From NCBI GenBank assembly GCA_031179305.1, contig JAPSHX010000001.1, positions 288,743 to 352,742 on the forward strand: a stretch of 64,000 nucleotides of DNA, written 5' to 3'. The notes below the pieces were generated by a model that saw nothing but the letters and a program-made list of their open reading frames with translations, had not been told where the DNA came from and searched no databases. Source of the stretch: Paenarthrobacter sp. (GTDB lineage: Bacteria; Actinomycetota; Actinomycetes; Actinomycetales; Micrococcaceae). Positions 7,179 to 34,679 of this stretch are shown here, one piece after another. The number at the start of each line of letters is the position of its first letter. The first letter of the stretch is position 1. The position numbers and the translations under genes are program-made.

Positions 7179-8288
7179 TCAGCGGTCCGCGTGGAACCGC
7201 TCTGGTGCCACACCGCCGTCGACGATGTCCTTCAAAACCCGGCCAATAGCCGGCGTGAACTTGAAACCATGACCCGAGAAACCAGCGCCCACCACCAGCG
7301 GACCGAAATGGTCCAGCACGAAGTCCTCGTTGGGCGTGGTGGTGTAAGTGCAGCTGATGGGAACCGCGGTGGAAGGGTCGACGCCGGGGAGCCACTCTTC
7401 TGCGTACCGCACCAACGCTTCCATTTGGTGGGGGATGGGCTCGAACGTGCGCTCGTCCGGATCCATGACCGGGCCGACTCCGTGCCAGCCGGCCTTCACG
7501 CCTTCGCCGGGGGTGAGCATTCCATAGACGGGGCTGTACCAGTATTCGTAGGCTTCGTTGTTCGGATCGGGGTCCGGGCTGTGGTTGAAGCTCGGCCACA
7601 CCAGCGTGTTATCCCTGGGCGTGAAGTGGGCTGGCTGCTCCTGGGTTACCACCAATGCCGGCAGATCCGTGAGCTTGCCGATGAGCTTCGGAGTCCAGGC
7701 ACCGGCCGTAACCACCACGCGGCTGGCCGTGTACTCCGTCTCTTCCGTCACCACCACCGCGGACTCGCCGCCAGTTACACGGATGTCCTTGACCGGCGTC
7801 GAGTACTTGAAAACGGCACCGTGGGCCTCAGCTGATTTCCGCAGCGCGAGCAAAGCGTCAGCGGAGCGGATCCGGCCCGAGCCTGGCACGAAGAGCACGT
7901 CGGTGGCGAAGTTCATCCCCAGCCAGCGGTTAGCGGCTTCGTCGGGGGAGATGAAGTAGCTTTCGATGCCACGGGCCTGGTGGGCCTCCCGAACCTGCTG
8001 CAGGAGGGGGACGTTTCCGTGGTTCACGAGCCCCACCATGTCCAGGAGCGGTGCGCCGTGCTCTGCCGCGAGCTCGTCCCAGAGGATCTTTGACTCGGCG
8101 AGCAGGTCCAGGTAGTCGGCTTCTGCGTACGCGGTGTTGAAGTTGCGCGTGGCGCCGTGAGATGCGCCGATGTGGTGACCGGCCTCGAACTGCTCCAACA
8201 GAACCACTGAGCGACCCGCCCGGGCGAGTTGCCACGCGGCAGCCGATCCCATGGCTCCTCCGCCAACAACTACAACGTCAATCTGCAT
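7179..8288 (-). CDS. Monomeric sarcosine oxidase / N-methyltryptophan oxidase-like FAD oxidase
   Basis: QIDVVVVGGGAMGSAAAWQLARAGRSVVLLEQF...GASHGATRNFNTAYAE...GFSGHGFKFTPAIG. ATG at 8288. Confidence 0.85.
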   Translation of the reverse strand: MQIDVVVVGGGAMGSAAAWQLARAGRSVVLLEQFEAGHHIGASHGATRNFNTAYAEADYLDLLAESKILWDELAAEHGAPLLDMVGLVNHGNVPLLQQVREAHQARGIESYFISPDEAANRWLGMNFATDVLFVPGSGRIRSADALLALRKSAEAHGAVFKYSTPVKDIRVTGGESAVVVTEETEYTASRVVVTAGAWTPKLIGKLTDLPALVVTQEQPAHFTPRDNTLVWPSFNHSPDPDPNNEAYEYWYSPVYGMLTPGEGVKAGWHGVGPVMDPDERTFEPIPHQMEALVRYAEEWLPGVDPSTAVPISCTYTTTPNEDFVLDHFGPLVVGAGFSGHGFKFTPAIGRVLKDIVDGGVAPERFHADR

Positions 8289-8364
8289 GCCTGCTCCATC
8301 CACCGTCGGCCCTCTCGAAAACGCGACCCCCCGAAGAGGGCCACCTCCCATTCTGCCCCTCCTC

Positions 8365-8432
8365 ACCCAACTAGGTAGCAGATCAGGTCGTTTTCAGCGC
8401 TGAGAACGACCTGAAGTGCTACCTAGTTGGGT
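8365..8432. repeat. 68-bp palindromic interspersed repeat, copy A
   Basis: ACCCAACTAGGTAGCAGATCAGGTCGTTTTCAGC|GCTGAGAACGACCTGAAGTGCTACCTAGTTGGGT; 31/34 arm positions pair. Confidence 0.95.
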
Positions 8433-8443
8433 CGGCAGGCACG

Positions 8444-9298
8444 TTACGCAGCTAGTCGCCTGCGGATCCACGCGGAGAACTGGTCCACCACGATGATCAG
8501 CACCAGCACGATCAAGATGTGCGTGAGCATGGAGTCGAACTGGAAAGACTTGATGGACTGGTTGATCAGGAGCCCAATACCACCGGCACCCACCAAGCCA
8601 AGGACCAGCGACGACCGTACGTTGACGTCGAAGCGGTACAGCAGCAGGCCCACGAACTGCGGAACCACCATGGGCAGCGTCGCGTTGGCTACCTGTTGGA
8701 TCCGGTTGGCACCGGCGGTCCGCAGAGCTTCCTGGGGGCCAGCGTCGATCTCCTCCATCGATTCCGCCCACAGCTTGCCCATCACCCCGGTGTTGTGGCA
8801 GATCAGCGCGAGCACGCCCGCAAACGGTCCAAGGCCGACGGCGGTGACGAAGATGAGCGCGAACACGATGTCCGGCACGGCGCGGAAGAAGGACAGGACG
8901 GCGCGCGCAGCTTGGTAGACGAGCCGGTGAGGGCTGGTGTTCTCAGCAGCCAGAGCTGCGAGCAGCAGCGCGAACGGCACGGACAACGTAGTTCCCAGCA
9001 GCCCGATCCACAGGGTAACAAGGGTTGCTTCGAGGCCGGGCTTGAGCGTCTTCTCCCAGCTGAGGTCCGGCGGGAAGGCGTCGCCAATGAACGCGGCCAT
9101 GCCCTTCCAGCCATCAACCAAAAGCTCCGGTTTGAAGTCGGTCCCTTCGATGGCCACGGCGTGAAGTCCGACGACGGCAGCCGCCACTGCCGCCGTCGTG
9201 ATCCACCGCAACGGCTTCTTCGGGCGGATCAGTGCCACCCGGGTTTGGGCAGAAGAGCCACGTCGCACGACGGCCGGGGTCAAGGTGTGGGGAGTCAT
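8444..9298 (-). CDS. phnE: Phosphonate ABC transporter permease
   Basis: PhnE-like permease (EIDAGPQEALRTAGANRIQQVANATLPMVVPQFVGLLLYRFDVNVRSSLVLGLVGAGGIG). ATG at 9298, 3' of phnC. Confidence 0.9.
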   Translation of the reverse strand: MTPHTLTPAVVRRGSSAQTRVALIRPKKPLRWITTAAVAAAVVGLHAVAIEGTDFKPELLVDGWKGMAAFIGDAFPPDLSWEKTLKPGLEATLVTLWIGLLGTTLSVPFALLLAALAAENTSPHRLVYQAARAVLSFFRAVPDIVFALIFVTAVGLGPFAGVLALICHNTGVMGKLWAESMEEIDAGPQEALRTAGANRIQQVANATLPMVVPQFVGLLLYRFDVNVRSSLVLGLVGAGGIGLLINQSIKSFQFDSMLTHILIVLVLIIVVDQFSAWIRRRLAA

Positions 9299-10068
9299 GC
9301 TGCCTGTGTCCTGTCTACGGAAGGGTTCCTGTCCGGGGCGTACAAGGTGTCGAGGTGCTCGGCCGTGATCTCTGTGGAGGGGAGGTCGAAAGTCATGGAG
9401 CCTTGGAGGAGCCCGATGGACCTGTCCGCGTACCTGAGTGCGAGGTCGGGCTGGTGCAGCACGGCGGCTACGGCCAGTCCTTCCGAATGCGCGAGTTCCC
9501 GCAGCAGCGCCATGACTTGTTCGGCGGCGTGCGGATCCAATGCGGACACCGGCTCGTCGGCGAGTACGACGTCGGCCCGTTGGCAAAGTGCCCGGGCTAC
9601 GGCCACGCGCTGCTGCTGTCCCCCGGAAAGCCGACCCACGCGGTCGAAGGCACGGTCCGCCAGGCCTACCCGGTCCAAGCAGTCGAGGGCTTCCTGCTGA
9701 ACGTCGGCCGGGAACAGCAAGGGAGTGAGTGAGCGGACGGTCGGGATCCGCGACAGGGCTCCTGCGCAGACGTTGTCCAAGGCCGTGCGACGGGGGACCA
9801 AATGGATCTTCTGGAAGATCATGGCCATCCGTTGCCTGGTCTGCTGGAGTTCACGGCCTTGCAAGGAATCCAGCGCAGCTCCGTCGATCCTGATGCTGCC
9901 CGAATCCGGCGAAGTGATACCCATGACGCAGCGCAACGTGGTGGACTTGCCGGAGCCGTTGGCGCCCAGGAAGGCCACCAGCTCGCCGGCTGCAACGGAG
10001 AAGTCGACACCCTCCAGGACGTTCCGCCCGTTGAAGGACTTACGCAAGCCTTGGACAGAAAGAAGCAT
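9295..10068 (-). CDS. phnC: Phosphonate ABC transporter ATP-binding protein
   Basis: Walker A GANGSGKST, signature LSGGQQQRVAVARAL, PhnC context between phnD and phnE. Confidence 0.9.
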   Translation of the reverse strand: MLLSVQGLRKSFNGRNVLEGVDFSVAAGELVAFLGANGSGKSTTLRCVMGITSPDSGSIRIDGAALDSLQGRELQQTRQRMAMIFQKIHLVPRRTALDNVCAGALSRIPTVRSLTPLLFPADVQQEALDCLDRVGLADRAFDRVGRLSGGQQQRVAVARALCQRADVVLADEPVSALDPHAAEQVMALLRELAHSEGLAVAAVLHQPDLALRYADRSIGLLQGSMTFDLPSTEITAEHLDTLYAPDRNPSVDRTQAA

Positions 10069-23198: not shown

Positions 23199-24467
23199 TC
23201 AGGATTCCTTGGAGATGACCTCTTTGGTGGAGGTGGTTTCATCGGGCTTGATGTCACTGTTGCGCTGGAAGTTCTGCATCAGCAGGCCGGTGATGGACCT
23301 CTTGCCCTGGGACTTGTTGTAGACATCGAAGGCCACTGCGGCCAGGAGAACCAGGCCCTTGATGATCTGGGTAAGGTCGGCGCCAACACCGAGGAGCTGG
23401 AGACCGTTGTTGAGGACGGCCATCACCAGGCCACCGACGATCGAGCCGATGACGGTACCAACACCACCGGTGACGGCGGCGCCACCGATGAAGACAGCTG
23501 CGATCGCGTCAAGCTCCCAACCGACACCATCGAACGGGCCGGAGGCTGTAGAACGGCCAACGAAGATCATGCCGGCCAGGCCGGCCAGGATGGACATGTT
23601 CATCATGACCAGAAAGTTGACCTTCTTGGACTGCACGCCGGAGAGTTCGGCTGCGTGGCGGTTGCCACCCACGGCGTAGACGTGACGGCCCAAGACCGTC
23701 TTGTCGGCGACGAATCCGTAAATGAGGACCAGCACGGCCAGGATCAGGCCGGGAATGGGGAAGGAAGTTCCGGGGCGGCCTGTAGCGAACAGGTACGTCG
23801 CGTAGAGGATGGCACCGCAGATCAGGACCAGCTTGGTGACCTCAACCCAAAGCTCGGGAACGTCGGCACCCAGTGCTTTGCTGGAGGCCCGGGCACGGAG
23901 GGACATGATGACTACCAGTGCGGCAGCTACCAGGCCGATAAGCAGCGTTAGGTTGTTGAAGCCCGTGTCCGGTCCTATTTCCGGAAGGTAGCCTGAGCCG
24001 AGGAACTGGAAGTCGGCGGGCACCGGGATCGTGTTGGACTTACCCACGAACTGGTTGAACCCACGGAAGAGGAGCATGCCCGCCAGCGTCACGATGAAGG
24101 CAGGGATACCCACATACGCTGTCCATAGCCCTTGCCAGGCACCGATCACCGCGCCCAAGAGCAGGCCGAACAGGACACCCATGTACCAGGGGAGGCCCCA
24201 GTCCCGCATGGCGAGAGCTACTGAAACTCCCACGAACGCTGCGACGGAACCCACGGACAGGTCGATATGGCCGGCAATGATGACCAGGACCATGCCGATC
24301 GCGAGGATCAGGATGTAGGAGTTGCCGTTGAACAGGTTGATCACGTTGCCGGGCGTCAGGGTGCGACCGTCCGTGAAGATCTGGAAGAAGACGATAAGTG
24401 CCACCAGGGCGAAGATCATGCCGAACTGGCGGGTATTGCCACCAAATAGCTTCTTGAGCGCGTTCAT
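23199..24467 (-). CDS. Sugar ABC transporter permease (MmsB/GguB/XylH-like)
   Basis: NLFNGNSYILILAIGMVLVIIAGHIDLSVGSVAAFVG...YAVGGNRHAAELSGV. Confidence 0.9.
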   Translation of the reverse strand: MNALKKLFGGNTRQFGMIFALVALIVFFQIFTDGRTLTPGNVINLFNGNSYILILAIGMVLVIIAGHIDLSVGSVAAFVGVSVALAMRDWGLPWYMGVLFGLLLGAVIGAWQGLWTAYVGIPAFIVTLAGMLLFRGFNQFVGKSNTIPVPADFQFLGSGYLPEIGPDTGFNNLTLLIGLVAAALVVIMSLRARASSKALGADVPELWVEVTKLVLICGAILYATYLFATGRPGTSFPIPGLILAVLVLIYGFVADKTVLGRHVYAVGGNRHAAELSGVQSKKVNFLVMMNMSILAGLAGMIFVGRSTASGPFDGVGWELDAIAAVFIGGAAVTGGVGTVIGSIVGGLVMAVLNNGLQLLGVGADLTQIIKGLVLLAAVAFDVYNKSQGKRSITGLLMQNFQRNSDIKPDETTSTKEVISKES

Positions 24468-24512
24468 TGTTTTGGTCCTTGTGTCAGGAAGGGGCGGGGC
24501 GGGGCCAAAGGG

Positions 24513-26069
24513 TCAGGCTGCTTTGCGGGCGGACGTCATAAGCTTCATCAGGCTTTCCTGGCTCGCTTCGTTCTTGTCCAGGACGCCTGTGATGGCGCCT
24601 TCAAAGATGGTGTAGATGCGGTCGGACAGGCCCAGAAGCTCAGGAAGCTCCGAGGAAATGACAATCACTCCCTTGCCTTGGTTCGCCAGCTTCTGGATGA
24701 TGCCGTAGATCTCGTACTTGGCGCCGACGTCAATGCCACGTGTGGGTTCGTCCAGGATCAGGAGATCCGGATCTGTGAACATCCATTTGGCCAGGACCAC
24801 CTTCTGCTGGTTGCCGCCGGAAAGCTTGGCAACGCCTTCTTCAACGGAAGGGGTCTTGGTCCGCAGCGACTTCCGATACTCCTCTGCAACCGTGAACTCC
24901 TTGCGGGTGTCCACCACCGTGTAGTTGCTGATGGCTCGGAGGTTTGCCGCCACCGTGGTGGTCTTGATGTCATCCAGGAGGTTGAGCCCAAGCGACTTGC
25001 GGTCCTCGGTGACATAGCCGAGTCCGGCGTCGATCGCTTGGCGAACGGTGCGCAGGTTGACTGGCTTGCCGTCCTTGTAGACCTGGCCCTTGATGAACCG
25101 GCCGTAGGAATGCCCAAACAGCGAGCGGGCCAGTTCCGTGCGGCCTGCCCCCATGAGCCCGGCGAACCCGACGATTTCACCGCGGCGTACGAAGAAATTG
25201 GAGCCTTTGCAGATCAGGCGGTCCTGGATCTGCGGGTGCCCAACGGTCCAGTCCTTCACCTCGAAGAAGACCTCGCCAATCTTGGGTTCGTGATCCGGGA
25301 AGCGGGACTCGAGCGTCCTGCCCACCATGCCCTTGATGATGCGGTCCTCATCCACGCCGTCACGCTTGACGTTCAGCGTTTCGATTGACTTACCGTCACG
25401 GATGATGGTGATCTCGTCAGCGATCTGTTCGATCTCATTGAGCTTGTGGGAAATGATGATGGACGTTATCCCGCGGCCCTTGAGGCCAAGGATCAGGTCC
25501 AGCAAGTGCTGGGAGTCCGATTCATTCAGCGCGGCCGTGGGCTCATCCAGGATCAGGAGCTTCACGGACTTGTTCAGGGCCTTGGCGATCTCCACCAATT
25601 GCTGCTTGCCAACGCCGATTTCCTTGATAGGGGTATCAGGGTCTTCACGAAGCCCCACTCGGGCCAGCAGCTCGGTTGAGCGCTTGCGGGCTTCGGCCCA
25701 GTCGATGACGCCCCACTTGGTGGGTTCGTTACCGAGGAAGATGTTCTCCATGATGGACAGTTCCGGGATCAGCGCCAGTTCCTGGTGAATGATCACGATC
25801 CCGGCCGCTTCACTGGCCCGGATGTCCTTGAACTGCTGGGTTTCGGCTTGGTACACGATGTCACCCGTGTAGCTGCCGTAGGGATAAACGCCGGAAAGAA
25901 CCTTCATCAAGGTGGATTTCCCAGCGCCGTTCTCACCGCAAATAGCGTGGATTTCGCCGGCCTTTACGCGCAGGCTCACATTCGACAAGGCCTTCACTCC
26001 AGGGAATTCCTTGGTGATGGAACGCATCTCCAAAAGGATGGGTTCACCTTGCGTGCCGAGGGTTGTCAT
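24513..26069 (-). CDS. Sugar ABC transporter ATPase, two nucleotide-binding domains (MmsA/GguA/XylG-like)
   Basis: [27 protein letters not shown] and C-terminal [36 protein letters not shown]. Confidence 0.92.
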
Positions 26070-26162
26070 CAGCCCTTACGCCTCCAATGCATGACTTCGT
26101 TGTCGGCTCCGCAAACGTCGGAGCTGTCTGATGAGAAAGTAAACTGGATCACGGGCCTTGTC

Positions 26163-26180
26163 GTCAAGACTTGAACGCAA
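26163..26180. promoter_or_regulatory. Candidate ROK operator upstream of the sugar ABC operon
   Basis: GTCAAGACTTGAACGCAA; matches 16 of 18 positions of 27423-27440 upstream of the ROK gene. Confidence 0.6.
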
Positions 26181-26199
26181 GACCCTGCTAACAATTTCG

Positions 26200-27390
26200 T
26201 TACCTGCCGGTAATTCCAGCGTGTTGGAACACGAGGGCCGCTGCGCCAAGAGCCTCTGCCCGCGCCCCCAACGAGGACATGGCGAGGTGCGTCGTTTCAC
26301 CCACCACGGGCACGGCATGCCGCACCAGGCCTCGACGGATGGGGTCCAGCAGCAGGTCGCCTAGTCCCGCAAGGGGTCCTCCGACAACGATCACTTCAGG
26401 GTTGATCAAGTTGGAAACGTTGCCCAAGGCGCGGCCCACTGCCAAGCCTGCATCGTCAACCACGCGCTGGGTCGCGGAGTCTCCGGCCAAGCAGTTGCGG
26501 ACAATGTCCTGCGGAGTCAGCAGCCTCTCCTGCCCGCGACCCAGCAGCTCAATCATGGTGGTGGTTGAGGCAATGGTTTCCAGGCATCCGCGGTTGCCAC
26601 AGCGGCATACCAGTCCATGTTCATGGATGGTTGCATGGCCGATTTCACCGGTGATGCCCACGTTCCCGTAGTAGGGAAGTCCATTAAGGATCAGCCCTGC
26701 ACCGATGCCCGAGCCGATCTTGAGAAACATGAGGTTCGAGACCCCGCTATGCGGTCCCCACGTTACCTCGGACAAGGCGCCGAGATTGGCGTCGTTGTCA
26801 ACAAAGACGGGACAGTTGAGCGCTTCCTCCAAGCGATGAAGTATGTCGATTCCCACCCACTCCGGGAGGATGGCGCCTTGGGCGACCGTGCCTGTGCGGC
26901 GGTCGATTGGCCCCGGAATACCGGCACCTGCTCCCACTACTGCGGTGCGATCGATGTCGTTTTCGCTCAGGAGCCGGTCAAGGAGGGGTACTGCGGCGGC
27001 GATCCCCTCTTCCGCTTGGTGACCCAGGGGCAGCTCTATGTAATCCTCGGCGATCACGTGGTAGCCGAGCGATGCCAACACCACCCTCAGGTGCCGGCGC
27101 CCGAAGTCGATTCCGACGGCGACAGCACCGTTGCTGTTCAGCCTCACGTTGGTTGCCCGGCGCCCGGAACTGGTGGTCGGCTCGGTGGAAACCAGTCCGG
27201 CGTCCTGCATGATTTTCACGATGTTGGAGATGGTGGCGGTGGAAAGTCCGGTCTGCCGGGAAAGCTCCGCTTGCGTGGACGGCCCGCTCAGCAAACATTC
27301 GATGATGCGCTGCTGGTTGAGGTGGCGGAGCGCGGACTGCGAGCCGGGCTTTCTTGGATGGCTCTTCGTTGAGCGCTGCGTAGCGGGCAT
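26200..27390 (-). CDS. ROK family transcriptional regulator (sugar-responsive)
   Basis: N-terminal HTH (LNQQRIIECLLSGPSTQAELSRQTGLSTATISNIV) plus ROK domain (GHATIHEHGLVCRCGNRGCLETIAS). Confidence 0.9.
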   Translation of the reverse strand: MPATQRSTKSHPRKPGSQSALRHLNQQRIIECLLSGPSTQAELSRQTGLSTATISNIVKIMQDAGLVSTEPTTSSGRRATNVRLNSNGAVAVGIDFGRRHLRVVLASLGYHVIAEDYIELPLGHQAEEGIAAAVPLLDRLLSENDIDRTAVVGAGAGIPGPIDRRTGTVAQGAILPEWVGIDILHRLEEALNCPVFVDNDANLGALSEVTWGPHSGVSNLMFLKIGSGIGAGLILNGLPYYGNVGITGEIGHATIHEHGLVCRCGNRGCLETIASTTTMIELLGRGQERLLTPQDIVRNCLAGDSATQRVVDDAGLAVGRALGNVSNLINPEVIVVGGPLAGLGDLLLDPIRRGLVRHAVPVVGETTHLAMSSLGARAEALGAAALVFQHAGITGR

Positions 27391-27422
27391 GACAAGAAGA
27401 TTGCCCCACAAGCCTTGTTGTA

Positions 27423-27558: not shown

Positions 27559-27694
27559 GGTGTGTGCATTGCGTCCCGATCCGGAGGCCCCCGGGTCCAA
27601 TTGCCTCACCCGATGCGTGGGTGCCGCACCTAGGCTGGAAGCAAGAAACGTCCCGGGCCCGTGTACGAGGCCCTCGGCAACAGGAGAAACGAAG

Positions 27695-28504
27695 GTGGTA
27701 ATGATGCTGCTCTCAGTCCTACAGGCGAACGCTTCCGTCATGGACGTTGAGGCGAACCTGCGCACAATAGACGACGCCGCGCAGCGCGCCGCCCAAGCCG
27801 GGGCCGGGCTGCTCCTCACTCCGGAGCTGTTCCCTGTGGGCTACGCACCCTTGCGCCTCCACGTCGAACTGGACCCGTCCACGCTCCCCGGCATCCGTGA
27901 ACGGCTGGCCGGGATCGCCCGGACCAACGGCATTGGCTTGGTGTACAGCCTTCCGGCGCCGGCAGCGGGAAGCGAAGGAAGCTGGCACATCACCGCCACC
28001 CTCCTCGACGCCGAAGGCAACGAGGTCCTCAACTACGCCAAGGTGCACCTCTTCGGTCCGGAGGAGCACAAAGCGTTCGTCGGCGCCCAAGAACCTCCCG
28101 CCGTCGTGGATTTCAACGGGATCCGCACATCGATGCTGATTTGCTACGACGTCGAGTTCCCGGAAGCCGTGCGTGCCGCTGCCACAAGAGGTGCCGAACT
28201 CCTGCTGGTGCCAACTGCCCTTTCCGCCGGTTTCGACAACGTGCCGCAGGTCCTGATCCGTGCCCGCGCATTGGAGAGCCAACTCAACGTGGCCTACGCC
28301 AACCACAGTGGGCACGAGGACATCTACAACTTCCTGGGCGGTAGCGTTGTTGCCGGACCAGACGGATCGTTGCTTGCCGCTGCGGGGGAGTCCGCCACGC
28401 TGTTGTTCGCAGAGGTCGGCACGGACACAGTAAAAGCGGCACGCGAAGAAGTCCCGTACCTGCGCGAACGCCGGCCGGAGCTCTACGAGGAGTGGGACAG
28501 CTAG
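27695..28504 (+). CDS. Nitrilase-superfamily carbon-nitrogen hydrolase (5-aminovaleramidase DavA-like by context)
   Basis: Glu-Lys-Cys type motifs: LLLTPELFPVGY, NYAKVHLFGPEEHK, SMLICYDVEFPEAVR. Start among GTG 27695 / ATG 27701 / ATG 27704 is uncertain. Confidence 0.8.
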   Translation: MVMMLLSVLQANASVMDVEANLRTIDDAAQRAAQAGAGLLLTPELFPVGYAPLRLHVELDPSTLPGIRERLAGIARTNGIGLVYSLPAPAAGSEGSWHITATLLDAEGNEVLNYAKVHLFGPEEHKAFVGAQEPPAVVDFNGIRTSMLICYDVEFPEAVRAAATRGAELLLVPTALSAGFDNVPQVLIRARALESQLNVAYANHSGHEDIYNFLGGSVVAGPDGSLLAAAGESATLLFAEVGTDTVKAAREEVPYLRERRPELYEEWDS

Positions 28505-30114
28505 TCGCCCGTCGAATCACCGGAAAGGCCGGCGACCAGCTCATCCACGTACTGCAAAGCAAACCACAACTCGGCCCGAACCTGTGCCTGGTTGAGGTCC
28601 ATGTCCAGCAGCTCGCCGAGCACGCCGATCTGCCGCCGAACGCTGTTGCGGTGCAGCCCCAGTAGCTTGGCCGAGCCGTCCCAGCTGCCATTTTCGCTGA
28701 GCCAACCGTGCAAAACGGCAAGGAGCGGGTCCCGGCGGTCCGGTTCAAGCGCGAGCACGGGGGCAAGGAATCGTTCGGCCAGCATGGTCCCGGCTTCGCG
28801 TCCCAACAGTCCTGTGACAGACCACGTGACTTCGTCAACGCGAGCACTCTTCCCGGTGGTCACCACGCGGCTACGCAGGGAGTTCGCCCGTTGGTAGGCG
28901 GCCTGGAGCCCCAGGAGTTCCGTCGGCTCGCCAATCACCAGCCGCCAGCCCAGCTTCTCCACATCGGAGAGCAGCGAGTCATCCACCTTCAGCCGGGTAA
29001 TGGCAGCGAAGCCGTAGTCTGTGAGCTCCACCAGCTTGGTGTCGAAAAGCCTCCGCCACTGCAGCAGCTCACGGACCGGCCCATCGTCTGCCGCGCCGTT
29101 CACCCTGATGCCCTGCACCACCCGCAGCTGTGCCGAACGGGTGGAGGACAAGCTCTGTGCCAGCAGGTCTTTGAGCCCGTTGACGTGTTTAGTGCCACCC
29201 GACGCAAGCGAATCCGGGTGCAACAGTACAGCCGTAGCCAGCTGGCTCGGTGCCAACGAGCCACTGGTCCGCTGCCTCACCAACAACTCCAGCAAGCCCA
29301 CGGCCGACTGCACCACATTGTTCTGCGCAGGCGTCAGCGGCGCATCCGAGCCGAGAATCAAGGCGCCAAGGTTGGCGTCCTTGGTGCTACGCAACGGGTG
29401 CCCGAACACCAGCGCCGAACCTGGCTGTTCGAAACCGTCCATCTCCACCCGCGGACCGCTGCCGGACAGCAACCGCTCCAGCAGAGGACCCAACAAGGAA
29501 TGCTCGACGCCGCTGCTGCCGCCGGCGTTGTGCCCCCGGGCACGGACTCGTCCGTCAGCGCCCACGAGAACAGCCCATACGGGCACCCTCTGGACCAGGG
29601 CCGCCAAAAGTTCATGTTCCGGCCGGGGGGACAGGACCGCCCGCATGAGTTGGCGGTTTGTCTCGGCCAGTTGCCGGAAGACCCTCGCGTTGTCAGTCTC
29701 CAGGAGCTGCGAGAACTCCAAGCCGATCGCCGCGAAAGGCACAGACTCCGGTACCTCGAACAAGGTGAGGTTGTGCTTGCGGCAAGCGTCCAGCAGGACG
29801 TCCGGGACGGCGTCGAAATAGGGTCTGATCCCGAAACCGAGCGCCGCAACTTTTGCACCCACTAGCCGCCGCACGTAGGCATCCACCTTGGCCGCCGAGC
29901 CACCCTTCCCAAGGAAAGGCAGCCCGGCGGTGAGGAGGAACTCGCCCTCCGGCAGGTACGGCGTGGGGTCTTCGAGCTCACTCGGTTCCACCCACCGCAG
30001 CAGCGAGGCGCCACTGCCGCCGTCGTGAAGCATTTTCAACTCCGGCGGCAACTGCTCCAGGAACTGTTCGAGCGTGACGAAACTCAGGCGGGCGGTTGCG
30101 GGCTCAGGCGACAT
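28501..30114 (-). CDS. PucR family transcriptional regulator
   Basis: N-terminal PucR-like domain and C-terminal HTH (LLAVLHGWLSENGSWDGSAKLLGLHRNSVRRQIGVLGELLDMDLNQAQVRAELWFAL). Confidence 0.85.
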   Translation of the reverse strand: MSPEPATARLSFVTLEQFLEQLPPELKMLHDGGSGASLLRWVEPSELEDPTPYLPEGEFLLTAGLPFLGKGGSAAKVDAYVRRLVGAKVAALGFGIRPYFDAVPDVLLDACRKHNLTLFEVPESVPFAAIGLEFSQLLETDNARVFRQLAETNRQLMRAVLSPRPEHELLAALVQRVPVWAVLVGADGRVRARGHNAGGSSGVEHSLLGPLLERLLSGSGPRVEMDGFEQPGSALVFGHPLRSTKDANLGALILGSDAPLTPAQNNVVQSAVGLLELLVRQRTSGSLAPSQLATAVLLHPDSLASGGTKHVNGLKDLLAQSLSSTRSAQLRVVQGIRVNGAADDGPVRELLQWRRLFDTKLVELTDYGFAAITRLKVDDSLLSDVEKLGWRLVIGEPTELLGLQAAYQRANSLRSRVVTTGKSARVDEVTWSVTGLLGREAGTMLAERFLAPVLALEPDRRDPLLAVLHGWLSENGSWDGSAKLLGLHRNSVRRQIGVLGELLDMDLNQAQVRAELWFALQYVDELVAGLSGDSTGD

Positions 30115-31351
30115 TGCCCTGCCCGGCGGCGGCCGGCTCCTGGTAGTCGGGGCACTCGTACGCGGTATCCTGGTTGGCACTGCTTGAGTAGGCGCGTGGC
30201 AGGCGCGGTGCAATCCTGTTGATGATCTCGTCGCCGTGGCTTCCGATCGCGGCACCCCAGTCGTCGGCGCTCGCCGCCCCGCAGGCCGGGTCACCGAACA
30301 ACACTGCGGTGTCCCCGACGTCGATTCCCGAAGCGTCCGGTCCGAGGTCCACCATGAACTGGTCCATGCAGACCTTGCCGATCACCGGCACCGCGCGTCC
30401 GGCCACGTTCACAACGGAACGGCCGCTGATGCCCTTGGGGATACCGTCCGCGTAACCCAGCGGGATGAGCCCGAGGTAGCGCGGTTCGTAGGTGATCGCC
30501 TGGTGTTCGTAGCTGACGCCTGTGCCTGCGGGAACCTTCTTGACCATGACCAGCGGAGCAGTCACGCTGAGTGCCGGACGCAATCCAAAGTCAGCCGGGT
30601 TCAGGTGATCGGCCGGGGCGAGTCCGTAGATGGCGAGCCCGGCGCGGACCATGTCGAAATGGAATTCGGGCCTGTCAAGGATGTTCGCCGAACTGGAAAC
30701 GTGCCTGAGCTCCGGGGCCAGTCCTGCCTCCCGTGCTTGCCGAACTGCGTCTTCGAACTCCGCGACGGCGGTGACGTTACCGGGGTGGGCTGGGACATCG
30801 GCCCAGGCGAGATGGGTCCATAGGCCTCGTACCCGCAGGGTCCCATCGATTTCGGCTTGCCGTGCCTGTGCCACAAGTTCAGCCCAGTCTTCCTTGCGGG
30901 CGCCTCCGCGGCTGAGGCCGCTATCGAGTTCCAAATGCACGACGGCGGGACGGCCAAGGCGTGTCGCGATCCCTGCGAGCACCTCCAGTTGGCTGATGCT
31001 TCCGAGGGAAACATCAATGTCGTATTTCAGTGCCTCAAGGATGGTGGCACTTGTCTGGGATGCCAGATACAGCCAGGAAAGGATGGGGACAGTGATGCCT
31101 GCTTGGCGGAGTGCGATAGCTTCACTGAGCTGGGCTGTGCCAAGCCAGTCCGCCCCGGCATCCACTGCCGTGCGGGCGACTTCAACCAGCCCATGGCCGT
31201 AGGCGTTGCCCTTGACTACGGCCATGAAATGCGGAGCTTGGGTGCGCATTTTCAGGGCTTTGACATTGTCTGAAATGGCGGACAGGTCCACGTTGACCTG
31301 CCCGGAAAGGGCCGCAGGGGCAGCCTCTTGATAGTGTGCATTACGTCTCAT
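30104..31351 (-). CDS. Alanine racemase family PLP enzyme
   Basis: VNVDLSAISDNVKALKMRTQAPHFMAVVKGNAYGHGLVEVA, VCMDQFMVDLG, GLIPLGYADGIPKG. Substrate not determinable. Confidence 0.88.
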   Translation of the reverse strand: MRRNAHYQEAAPAALSGQVNVDLSAISDNVKALKMRTQAPHFMAVVKGNAYGHGLVEVARTAVDAGADWLGTAQLSEAIALRQAGITVPILSWLYLASQTSATILEALKYDIDVSLGSISQLEVLAGIATRLGRPAVVHLELDSGLSRGGARKEDWAELVAQARQAEIDGTLRVRGLWTHLAWADVPAHPGNVTAVAEFEDAVRQAREAGLAPELRHVSSSANILDRPEFHFDMVRAGLAIYGLAPADHLNPADFGLRPALSVTAPLVMVKKVPAGTGVSYEHQAITYEPRYLGLIPLGYADGIPKGISGRSVVNVAGRAVPVIGKVCMDQFMVDLGPDASGIDVGDTAVLFGDPACGAASADDWGAAIGSHGDEIINRIAPRLPRAYSSSANQDTAYECPDYQEPAAAGQGNVA

Positions 31352-31449
31352 GGTTGAACACTATAGGTCATTTTGCACCGCGGTGAGAGGTGGCTCACAT
31401 GCCAGTCTTGTGGAGGGGAAATCGAAACTACTTTGAAGGGACGTCAAGG

Positions 31450-32976
31450 GTGACTGTGCCTGTGAACACCAAAAACCCGGCCGCGGCAAGCGTCGCCAGG
31501 CCGAGCCTCGGCGCGCAACTGCTGCGCCGCAAGCCAATTGGCCAGATGGTCAGCGAAGCCGGAAGCGGCGAAGGCGGAACGCCGCTGGTCCGCAGCTTTG
31601 GCGTCCTTCAGCTGACCATGATCAGCGTCGGCGCCACGCTCGGCACCGGCATCCTGGTCATCCTTGGCGAATCCGTGCCGCTGGCCGGTCCGGCCATCTG
31701 GATCTCGTTCGTGATCGCCGGGCTGGCTGCACTCCTTTCCGCTGTGTCCTACGCTGAGATGGCGGGTCTGGTCCCGGTGGCCGGTTCCAGCTATTCCTAC
31801 TCTTACGCCACCATGGGCGAGGGCATGGCCTGGATTTGTGGCTGGTGCCTGGTCCTGGAATATGCAGTCTCCGTAGCGGCCGTGTCCGTGGGCGCGGGCC
31901 AGTATGTCAACGAAACGTTGGCCGCTTTCGGAGTGTTCCTCCCGGATGCCATCAGCCAGCCACCCGGAGAGGGCGGCGTGGTGAATGTTTCGGCCATGGT
32001 GATTGTGCTGCTCGCCATGGTGCTGCTGGTCCGGGGCGCCCGTGAGAGCGCGTGGGTCAATACAGCGATCGTGGCCATCAAGGTGGGCATCCTGCTCTTC
32101 TTCTGCGCCGTGGCCTTCACTGCATTCAGCGCCGGCAACTTCGAGCCACTCCTGCCCATGGGTGCAGCCGGGGTGTCCGCTGCCGCCTCGAGTGTCTTCT
32201 TCTCCTACATCGGCTTTGATGCCGCCTCCACTGCCGGCGAGGAAGCCAGGAACCCCAAGCGCGACCTGCCGCGGGCCATCATGCTCTCCATGGTCATCGT
32301 CACCAGCATCTATGTGTTAGTAGCCGTGGCCGCAATTGGCGCGCGGCCATGGGGCTGGTTCGAGGGTACTGAAGCCGGCTTGGTGCAGATTTTGCATGAG
32401 ATCACCGGCCAACCCTGGATAGCCCTGGCATTCTCCGCCGGTGCTGTGCTCGCCATTGCCAGCATCGTGCTGACCGTTCTTTACGGACAGACACGCATCC
32501 TGCTCTCCATGTCCCGCGACGGAATGGTGCCCAAGGTCTTCGGCCGAGTGTCCCGCCGCACCGGCACTCCGGTGGCCGGAACGCTGATAGTGGGTATCGC
32601 CGTTGCTGTCACCGCCGGTTTGGTTCCCCTGGGAACGTTGGCGGACGCCACCAGCATCGGCACGTTGTTTGCCTTCGCATTGGTCAACGTTGCTGTGATC
32701 TACCTGCGGCGGAACCGACCGGACCTTGAACGGAGCTTCCGCGTTCCGCTGTACCCGCTGACTCCCGTCCTCGGGACCCTGATGTGCGCCTTCCTGATGC
32801 TAAACCTCGGAGCCGATACCTGGATCACCTTCGGTATTTGGATGCTGGTGGGCATCGCCATCTACTTCGGCTACGGACGCCGGAACTCCAAGGTAGCCAC
32901 GCTCAGCGAGCAGGACTACCGTGAACTAACCACCAGGGCCGTGAGCCCGGAACCTGTGAAAGCAGACAACTCATGA
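31450..32976 (+). CDS. APC family amino acid permease
   Basis: MISVGATLGTGILVILGESVPLAGPAIWISFVIAGLAALLSAVSYAEMAGLVPVAGSSYSYSYATMGEGMAWICGW; about 12 TMs. Start chosen at GTG 31450. Confidence 0.88.
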   Translation: MTVPVNTKNPAAASVARPSLGAQLLRRKPIGQMVSEAGSGEGGTPLVRSFGVLQLTMISVGATLGTGILVILGESVPLAGPAIWISFVIAGLAALLSAVSYAEMAGLVPVAGSSYSYSYATMGEGMAWICGWCLVLEYAVSVAAVSVGAGQYVNETLAAFGVFLPDAISQPPGEGGVVNVSAMVIVLLAMVLLVRGARESAWVNTAIVAIKVGILLFFCAVAFTAFSAGNFEPLLPMGAAGVSAAASSVFFSYIGFDAASTAGEEARNPKRDLPRAIMLSMVIVTSIYVLVAVAAIGARPWGWFEGTEAGLVQILHEITGQPWIALAFSAGAVLAIASIVLTVLYGQTRILLSMSRDGMVPKVFGRVSRRTGTPVAGTLIVGIAVAVTAGLVPLGTLADATSIGTLFAFALVNVAVIYLRRNRPDLERSFRVPLYPLTPVLGTLMCAFLMLNLGADTWITFGIWMLVGIAIYFGYGRRNSKVATLSEQDYRELTTRAVSPEPVKADNS

Positions 32977-34679
32977 CCATCGCCACAGAACTCCCCCTCA
33001 TCGAGGAACCAGGCGCGCCCGACGCGGCCGCCGGAGCACCGATCACCATGCTGAACCCGGACTTCCCGTTCAGCTACGACCACTACTTGGCGCACTCCGA
33101 CGGACTCGGCTCAATCCCGGAAGAGCTCTACGGCACGGAAGTAGCCATCATCGGGGCAGGCCTGTCCGGGCTGGTCACGGCCTACGAGCTGATGAAGCTT
33201 GGTCTCAAGCCGGTCATCTACGAGGCCGACCAGATTGGTGGACGCCTCAGGACCGCGAGCTTCCCCTCGGCTCCCGGCGTTGTGGCGGACCTGGGCGGCA
33301 TGCGCTTCCCGGTTTCGGGCAAGGCCTTCTACCACTACGTGGACCTGCTTGGCCTGGATACCAACGAGTTCCCAAACCCCATGGCGCCGGCAACCTCTTC
33401 TACGGTGATCGAGCTTGCGGGCAAAAAGCACTACGCCACCACTGCAGATGAGCTACCGGAGTTCTTTCTCGAAGTAGCCGACGCCTGGAAAGCAGCAGTC
33501 AACGATGGCGCCGCCTTTGCGGAGATGCAGGAAGCCATCAAGGCCCGCGACACCAAGCGGATCAAGGAACTCTGGAATGCGCTCCTCCCGGAACTGGACG
33601 AGCAAACCTTTTACGGCTTCATCGCCGCCAGCAAATCCTTCAAAGAGGCTGGTTTTGCGCATCGCGAGGCCTTCGGCCAGGTGGGCTTCGGTACTGGCGG
33701 TTGGGACACCGATTTCCCCAACTCCATCCTCGAAATCCTCCGCGTGGTCTACACCGACGCCGACGACCAGCACCGCTCCATTGCGGGAGGAGCGCAAAGG
33801 CTCCCTGAGGCACTCTGGAACCACGCGCCGTCGGGCCTTACGTACTGGCCCGAGGGCACCTCGCTCGCATCCCTTCACTCCGGCTCGCCCCGCGGAGCCG
33901 TGGACAACATCCGCCGGGTTGAGAACGGCGACCTCCTGGTCCGCGAGAACTGGGGCCGCGAAGCTACCTATCAGGCCGTGGTGACCACCTGCCAGTCCTG
34001 GTTGCTGTCCACCCGCATCCACACTGAGGAAGCGCTGTTCCCGGCCGAACTGTGGACCGCGATCGAGCGCTCGCATTACATGCAGTCTTCAAAGACTTTT
34101 GTGATGGTGGATCGCCCGTTCTGGAAGGACATCGATCCTGAGACCGGACGCGAAGTCCTTTCCATGACCCTCACCGACCGCCTCAACCGGGCCACGTACC
34201 TGCTCGACGACGGCCCGGACAAGCCCGCTGTCATGCTCCTGTCTTACACATGGAACGACGACGCCCTGAAATGGCTGGCCCTGACCGCGGACGAGCGAGT
34301 GAAGCTGATGCTGCACTCCTTGGAACAGATCTACCCGGGCGTGGACATTGCGAGCCACATCGTCGGGCAGCCGATCACGGTGTCTTGGGAAGCGGACCCT
34401 AACTTCATGGGTGCGTTCAAAGCCAACCTGCCCGGCCACTACCGGTACCAGCAACGCTTGTTCACCCACTTCAAGCAGGACCAGCTGCCAGAGCACCAGC
34501 GCGGTATTTTCCTGGCCGGTGACGACGTGTCCTTCACCGCCGGCTGGGCTGAGGGTGCTGTGACCACGGGCCTGAACGCCGTATGGGGAGTGGTGAATCA
34601 CCTGGGCGGTTCGTCGGCTGCCGGAAACCCCGGACCGGGTGACCTCCTTGACGAGCTCGGCCCGATCTCCCTGGACTAA
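32973..34679 (+). CDS. Flavin monooxygenase/amine oxidase, L-lysine 2-monooxygenase (DavB)-like
   Basis: NPDFPFSYDHYLAHSDGLGSIP...GTEVAIIGAGLSGLVTAYELMKLGLKPVIYEADQIGGRLR...GGMRFPVSGKAFYHYVDLLGL...YMQSSKTFVMVDRPFWKDIDPETGREVLSMTLTDRLNRATYL closely resembles the recalled Pseudomonas DavB sequence over its length. Confidence 0.82.
   Translation: MTIATELPLIEEPGAPDAAAGAPITMLNPDFPFSYDHYLAHSDGLGSIPEELYGTEVAIIGAGLSGLVTAYELMKLGLKPVIYEADQIGGRLRTASFPSAPGVVADLGGMRFPVSGKAFYHYVDLLGLDTNEFPNPMAPATSSTVIELAGKKHYATTADELPEFFLEVADAWKAAVNDGAAFAEMQEAIKARDTKRIKELWNALLPELDEQTFYGFIAASKSFKEAGFAHREAFGQVGFGTGGWDTDFPNSILEILRVVYTDADDQHRSIAGGAQRLPEALWNHAPSGLTYWPEGTSLASLHSGSPRGAVDNIRRVENGDLLVRENWGREATYQAVVTTCQSWLLSTRIHTEEALFPAELWTAIERSHYMQSSKTFVMVDRPFWKDIDPETGREVLSMTLTDRLNRATYLLDDGPDKPAVMLLSYTWNDDALKWLALTADERVKLMLHSLEQIYPGVDIASHIVGQPITVSWEADPNFMGAFKANLPGHYRYQQRLFTHFKQDQLPEHQRGIFLAGDDVSFTAGWAEGAVTTGLNAVWGVVNHLGGSSAAGNPGPGDLLDELGPISLD

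Follow-up and report, generated by a model that had tools for sequence, protein, structure and literature searches.

Which basic amino acid is consumed by the enzymes of a five-gene cluster at positions 27695-34679 is the question raised by the 64,000-nt stretch of Paenarthrobacter DNA that is analysed here (the window). The central gene of this cluster (32973-34679, plus strand; PF01593 170 bits) encodes a flavin amino-acid oxidase/monooxygenase (FMO) of 568 aa, and it is accompanied by genes for a nitrilase-superfamily amidase, a PucR-family regulator, an alanine-racemase-family enzyme and a permease. An earlier sequence-only reading had named the same five genes, all of which are confirmed by open reading frames (ORFs) and profiles, and had assigned them to a lysine pathway. 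We find support for the general chemistry of that proposal, in which a basic amino acid is oxidatively decarboxylated and the resulting amide is hydrolysed, but think that lysine as the substrate is probably wrong. With a probability of roughly 0.8, the cluster covers arginine uptake and the opening two steps of the arginine oxygenase pathway, and a guanidinobutyrase-type ureohydrolase encoded elsewhere in the genome of this soil bacterium would complete the route to γ-aminobutyrate (GABA) and urea. Arginine 2-monooxygenase (EC 1.13.12.1) has been known for decades from Streptomyces and Arthrobacter-like bacteria, and the papers searched for this enzyme in Arthrobacter contained nothing useful. 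The window cluster would represent an Arthrobacter-group gene set for this already known route.

The FMO does resemble DavB, as the sequence-only reading stated. Its best match in the PDB is the Pseudomonas AIU813 L-amino acid oxidase/monooxygenase (3WE0/5YB6-8; 802 bits, E 2e-240); it is 60% identical to this L-lysine oxidase/monooxygenase over 548 aligned residues, and has the FAD fold and the length in common with the AIU813 enzyme and DavB. In the AIU813 structures, Asp238 holds the terminal positive group of lysine, ornithine and arginine, and Ala515 is part of the side-chain pocket lining; a glycine in place of Ala515 is among the changes behind the wider pocket of TMO and PAO, the tryptophan and phenylalanine enzymes (PMC5832979). 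The window FMO retains Asp238 along with Arg102, Trp235, Tyr416, Trp418, Phe473 and Trp516, whereas Ala254, His258 and Gly515 stand in place of Cys254, Gln258 and Ala515, and its gene has other neighbours. In a 45-sequence maximum-likelihood tree of FMOs, a clade with 100/100 support, here termed the Lys clade and characterized by Gln258/Ala515, unites the AIU813 enzyme with three rhodobacterial plasmid proteins (L133-135) and two proteins from actinobacteria (L148, L164). The window FMO falls outside it and groups at 100/99 with the FMO of a ureohydrolase-linked locus (L149). Three positions that are not among the residues defining the FMO classes also separate the two groups without exception, as Thr237, His359 and Gln484 in 54 sequences of the window class are opposed to Ser237, Arg359 and Asn484 in the 6 of the Lys clade. 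Both the Asp238 cation site and, with Gly515, the wider pocket expected of an arginine 2-monooxygenase are found in the window FMO; of the features expected of a lysine 2-monooxygenase (EC 1.13.12.2), it has the family and Asp238, but neither Lys-clade membership nor Gln258/Ala515.

The gene neighbourhoods of related FMOs point to arginine as well. For these, 395 genomes were sampled at the level of the class and 396 at that of the order, together with plasmids; a ureohydrolase within 9.5 kb was taken as linked, and the counts refer to loci outside a set of 80 related loci from the Arthrobacter/Paenarthrobacter/Pseudarthrobacter group (FMO identity 84-99%). A linked ureohydrolase was present in 17/56 Asp238/Gly515 loci, representing at least five families, and it was mostly the next gene, in the same orientation (as in L210-L214, L219-L223 and L225). 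Sixteen of these belong to the 53 loci with Asp238/His258/Gly515, and one to the three with Asp238/Gln258/Gly515. By our own rough estimate, based on 2-3 ureohydrolases per genome of ~4.5 Mb, chance would account for about one linked locus in 56. Several linked loci come from close relatives, so that the independent evidence amounts to about five or six lineages. No ureohydrolase was found within 9.5 kb in the Lys-clade loci (0/5) or in the loci of an Asn238 class described below (0/11). An amidase gene is close to the FMO gene in 38 of the 53 Asp238/His258/Gly515 loci from the genome search and plasmids, and in actinobacteria with large genomes, many loci of that residue class show this pairing. 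On a Tsukamurella plasmid, a ureohydrolase (annotated as agmatinase), a permease of the cationic amino acid transporter type, a nitrilase and the FMO are contiguous. In genome G708 (locus L207), an amidase, a permease (71% identical to that of the window) and an FMO (80% identical) share the locus with a block consisting of an XRE regulator, a Na-symporter, a ureohydrolase and a thiamine pyrophosphate (TPP)-dependent decarboxylase.

In the window's own genome, the contig that holds the cluster also carries a counterpart of this L207 block, 178 kb away (about C21:138-146 kb, within locus L136, C21:136000-151000), where a Na-symporter, a cupin-XRE regulator, a guanidinobutyrase-like ureohydrolase (at C21:143 kb) and an AruI-like TPP decarboxylase are encoded. 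The closest solved relative of this ureohydrolase is guanidinobutyrase 3NIO (278 bits), followed by 3-guanidinopropionase, proclavaminate amidinohydrolase and agmatinases. Among the leading matches of the neighboring TPP enzyme is 5-guanidino-2-oxopentanoate decarboxylase, at a score below the cut-off, and a GABA transaminase over the cut-off is encoded elsewhere in the genome. The FMO is genetically linked to an amidase in the window itself, and to a ureohydrolase of the guanidinobutyrase type in relatives, the latter being unlinked here.

From the observed gene content, clade, pocket residues and linkage in relatives, we infer substrate, products and regulation as follows. The cationic amino-acid permease would import L-arginine, which the FMO (EC 1.13.12.1 type) would convert with O2 to 4-guanidinobutyramide, CO2 and H2O. 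The nitrilase-type amidase would then hydrolyse the amide to 4-guanidinobutyrate and NH3, and the distant ureohydrolase would cleave 4-guanidinobutyrate to GABA and urea, with the GABA transaminase taking GABA onward. As 5-guanidino-2-oxopentanoate is the expected product of an oxidase side activity of the FMO on arginine, the AruI-like decarboxylase may act as a salvage enzyme for this 2-oxo acid. Enzymes for the two steps from arginine via 4-guanidinobutyramide to 4-guanidinobutyrate are established in Streptomyces azalomycin producers (PMC5082578, PMC10322714), where an arginine monooxygenase and a 4-guanidinobutyramide hydrolase carry out the same chemistry as predicted for the window. The Streptomyces pair supplies a polyketide starter unit, whereas the permease, the PucR regulator and the genome-encoded ureohydrolase point to catabolism in the case of the window.

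Several observations weigh against an assignment to arginine. A ureohydrolase adjoins the cluster in none of the 80 Arthrobacter-group loci. The ureohydrolase 178 kb away belongs to the core of the genus and was found in 14/14 tested genomes that lack the FMO, so that the joint occurrence of the two genes across genomes is uninformative; since this ureohydrolase also occurs without the FMO, it may serve a second arginine route. NCBIfam labels these ureohydrolases as agmatinase, and their function is assigned by similarity. The Lys clade is sampled with only 6 sequences, and the tree contains no biochemically proven arginine monooxygenase. Finally, the AIU813 enzyme of the Lys clade oxygenates arginine as well, with a kcat/Km of 24 compared to 74 for lysine and 200 for ornithine (PMC5832979), so that a single enzyme of this family can serve several basic amino acids.

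This last point is the basis of the view that the FMO is a promiscuous oxidase/monooxygenase for arginine, ornithine and lysine that lacks a single physiological substrate and whose products are sorted by later enzymes. The substrate range of the AIU813 enzyme (PMC5832979), an Asp238 that recognises any terminal cation and a permease of a generally cationic type all agree with it, but the pocket residues and the neighbours are clade-specific and suggest separate specialisation, and we regard such promiscuity as unlikely. The pathway favoured by the sequence-only reading, in which a DavB-like lysine 2-monooxygenase and a DavA-like amidase lead from lysine to 5-aminovalerate and the racemase feeds in D-lysine, also appears unlikely to us. 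It draws on the 60% identity to the AIU813 lysine enzyme and the retained Asp238, the amidase and the cationic permease would suit either substrate, and the GABA transaminase of the genome could act as DavT. Yet the FMO stands outside the Lys clade and lacks Gln258, Ala515, Ser237, Arg359 and Asn484, and its relatives instead share operons with ureohydrolases of the guanidinobutyrase type, which is why we consider the DavB/DavA/5-aminovalerate assignment to be probably wrong. No glutarate genes occur near the cluster in the window or in the related Arthrobacter loci, and the racemase is absent from 48/80 clusters; the earlier statement that davT and davD are missing likewise holds for the surroundings of the cluster in the window. 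CsiD is absent from the own genome and four close genomes, a weak negative, and all matches to succinate-glutarate CoA-transferase were below the cut-off, also in a likely lysine genome, and are not informative. That latter genome (G375, a member of the Micrococcaceae) carries at L148 a DavB-type FMO gene beside genes for a nitrilase, an AsnC/Lrp-like regulator and an acyl-CoA dehydrogenase, flanked by a GABA transaminase (over cut-off) and a gene that best matches succinate-glutarate CoA-transferase (below cut-off). The two flanking genes are what a route from lysine via 5-aminovalerate to glutarate needs, and L148 is likely a true lysine cluster in an actinobacterium.

The racemase-family gene (30104-31351, minus strand) overlaps the start of pucR. 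Its product scores 289 bits with TIGR00492 (cut-off 168) and retains the positions of the pyridoxal-phosphate lysine and the catalytic tyrosine in comparison with its best PDB match 1VFH. A D/L interconversion step, as included in the sequence-only reading, is not borne out, since the gene is absent from the majority of clusters, the score is that of an ordinary Alr-family member and the genome has another, housekeeping alr. This other gene is found at C28 next to tsaE/tsaB/tsaD-like genes, which were recognised by eye from translations. The same reading had allowed for the cluster gene being the only Alr, but the genome has three Alr genes over the cut-off, including the cluster copy. One could still imagine a dedicated lysine or arginine racemase that makes D-amino acids usable, which would be compatible with either pathway: the gene is distinct from the housekeeping alr, overlaps pucR and is divergent from permease and FMO. 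With a score of only 108 against the cut-off of 434 for the PRK13340 subfamily model, and with the gene present in only 32/80 related clusters and gained or lost six times along the tree, we find this improbable; the same distribution marks the racemase as a dispensable member of the cluster. In one locus (L061, ~8000-8350), an alr remnant of ~68 aa is all that lies between pucR and the permease gene, which suggests decay of the cluster alr.

Permease and FMO occur together in 80/80 related loci, PucR accompanies them wherever the contig is long enough, and nearly all of these loci have the nitrilase close by. An FMO was found in 135/150 genomes of the GTDB genus, Arthrobacter globiformis NBRC 12137 carries the cluster as well (L034), and the FMO of Paenarthrobacter aurescens TC1 is 97% identical to that of the window. 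The permease gene (31450-32976, plus strand) has an ORF that is open from 31390, but the GTG at 31450 is the likelier start, and its stop overlaps the FMO start by 4 bases. Its product is an APC-superfamily permease of the cationic-amino-acid-transporter type (PF13520, PF13906 AA_permease_C) whose best subfamily similarities include the cationic amino acid transporters, with TIGR00909 and TIGR00906 at scores below their cut-offs. The nitrilase-superfamily enzyme that the sequence-only reading had placed nearby (27695 or 27701 to 28504, plus strand; PF00795 135 bits) is closest in the PDB to the Nesterenkonia-type amidase 5JQN/3HKX (230 bits), and the Glu, Lys, Glu and Cys positions are all retained in the alignment with 5JQN. 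The CN_hydrolase fold and the catalytic positions are common to DavA, these amidases and the window enzyme, and a substrate cannot be assigned from sequence alone. In several relatives (L004, L009, L012, L020-L022; ~2-5 kb from the left end), three extra genes for an ABC-transporter ATPase, a membrane protein of ~475 aa and a protein of ~175 aa separate the nitrilase gene from pucR, which makes the nitrilase a looser member of the cluster.

The regulator (28501-30117, minus strand; PF07905 and PF13556) is encoded convergently with the nitrilase and is kept in the Arthrobacter-group loci. PucR probably regulates the cluster genes, perhaps via a conserved element that is common to the permease and amidase promoters. 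An element of ~60 bases upstream of permease and FMO (31335-31393; TGTGCATTACGTCTCATG ... CACTATAGGTCATTTTGCAC) is conserved among relatives and is a putative operator or promoter. Its 15-base core lies upstream of the permease in 74/78 loci, irrespective of the presence of alr, and a second copy upstream of the nitrilase (TGTGCATTGCGTCCC; 27563-27577, plus strand) could form a shared operator; the latter position is occupied in the window and in about one third of the loci only. With at most 2 mismatches, the core has just two matches in the 64-kb window, a number that was also reached in 12/100 shuffles. As the core is strong upstream of the permease and partial upstream of the amidase, we offer it as a lead only, and control of the cluster by PucR via this candidate operator is plausible.

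If the assignment to arginine is correct, the Arthrobacter group provides a set of candidate genes for the classical arginine oxygenase pathway. Actinobacterial DavB-like genes can easily be mislabeled as lysine/5-aminovalerate genes, which are of relevance as nylon-monomer genes, and most of those sampled look like arginine enzymes. Residues 258 and 515 together with the neighbours provide rules that distinguish lysine, arginine and possibly citrulline types. The citrulline type refers to a sister clade with Asn238/Gln258/Gly515 (L188-L192, L194-L197, L153), in which an amidase, an M20 carbamoylase and an asparagine-permease-like gene are present in 11/11 loci. The M20 hydrolase is of the hydantoinase/carbamoylase family (TIGR01879 over cut-off), and the loci come from further strains of the Arthrobacter group and from a single, more distantly related actinobacterium. 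The D238N mutant of the AIU813 enzyme showed no activity on any substrate tested (PMC5832979), and the natural Asn238 enzymes presumably act on another substrate. Tentatively, and at somewhat less than even odds, we suggest that the FMO family has split into amino-acid-specific, amide-forming modules by a few pocket residues, with Asp238/Ala515 for lysine, Asp238/Gly515 for arginine and Asn238/Gly515 for citrulline, the latter being a so far undescribed citrulline 2-monooxygenase. Such an enzyme would generate 4-ureidobutyramide, from which the amidase would form 4-ureidobutyrate and the adjacent carbamoylase GABA; among the papers searched, none dealt with an enzyme of the citrulline 2-monooxygenase type. 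Two further loci (L193 and L198, FMO near 8000-9720) have a Ser238 variant beside a nitrilase and an asparagine-permease-like gene, with no adjacent carbamoylase. Directly upstream of the nitrilase gene in the window (23199-27411, minus strand), genes for a sugar-type ABC transporter permease and ATPase lie beside that of a ROK-family repressor, as recognised by eye, and these are seemingly unrelated to the cluster.

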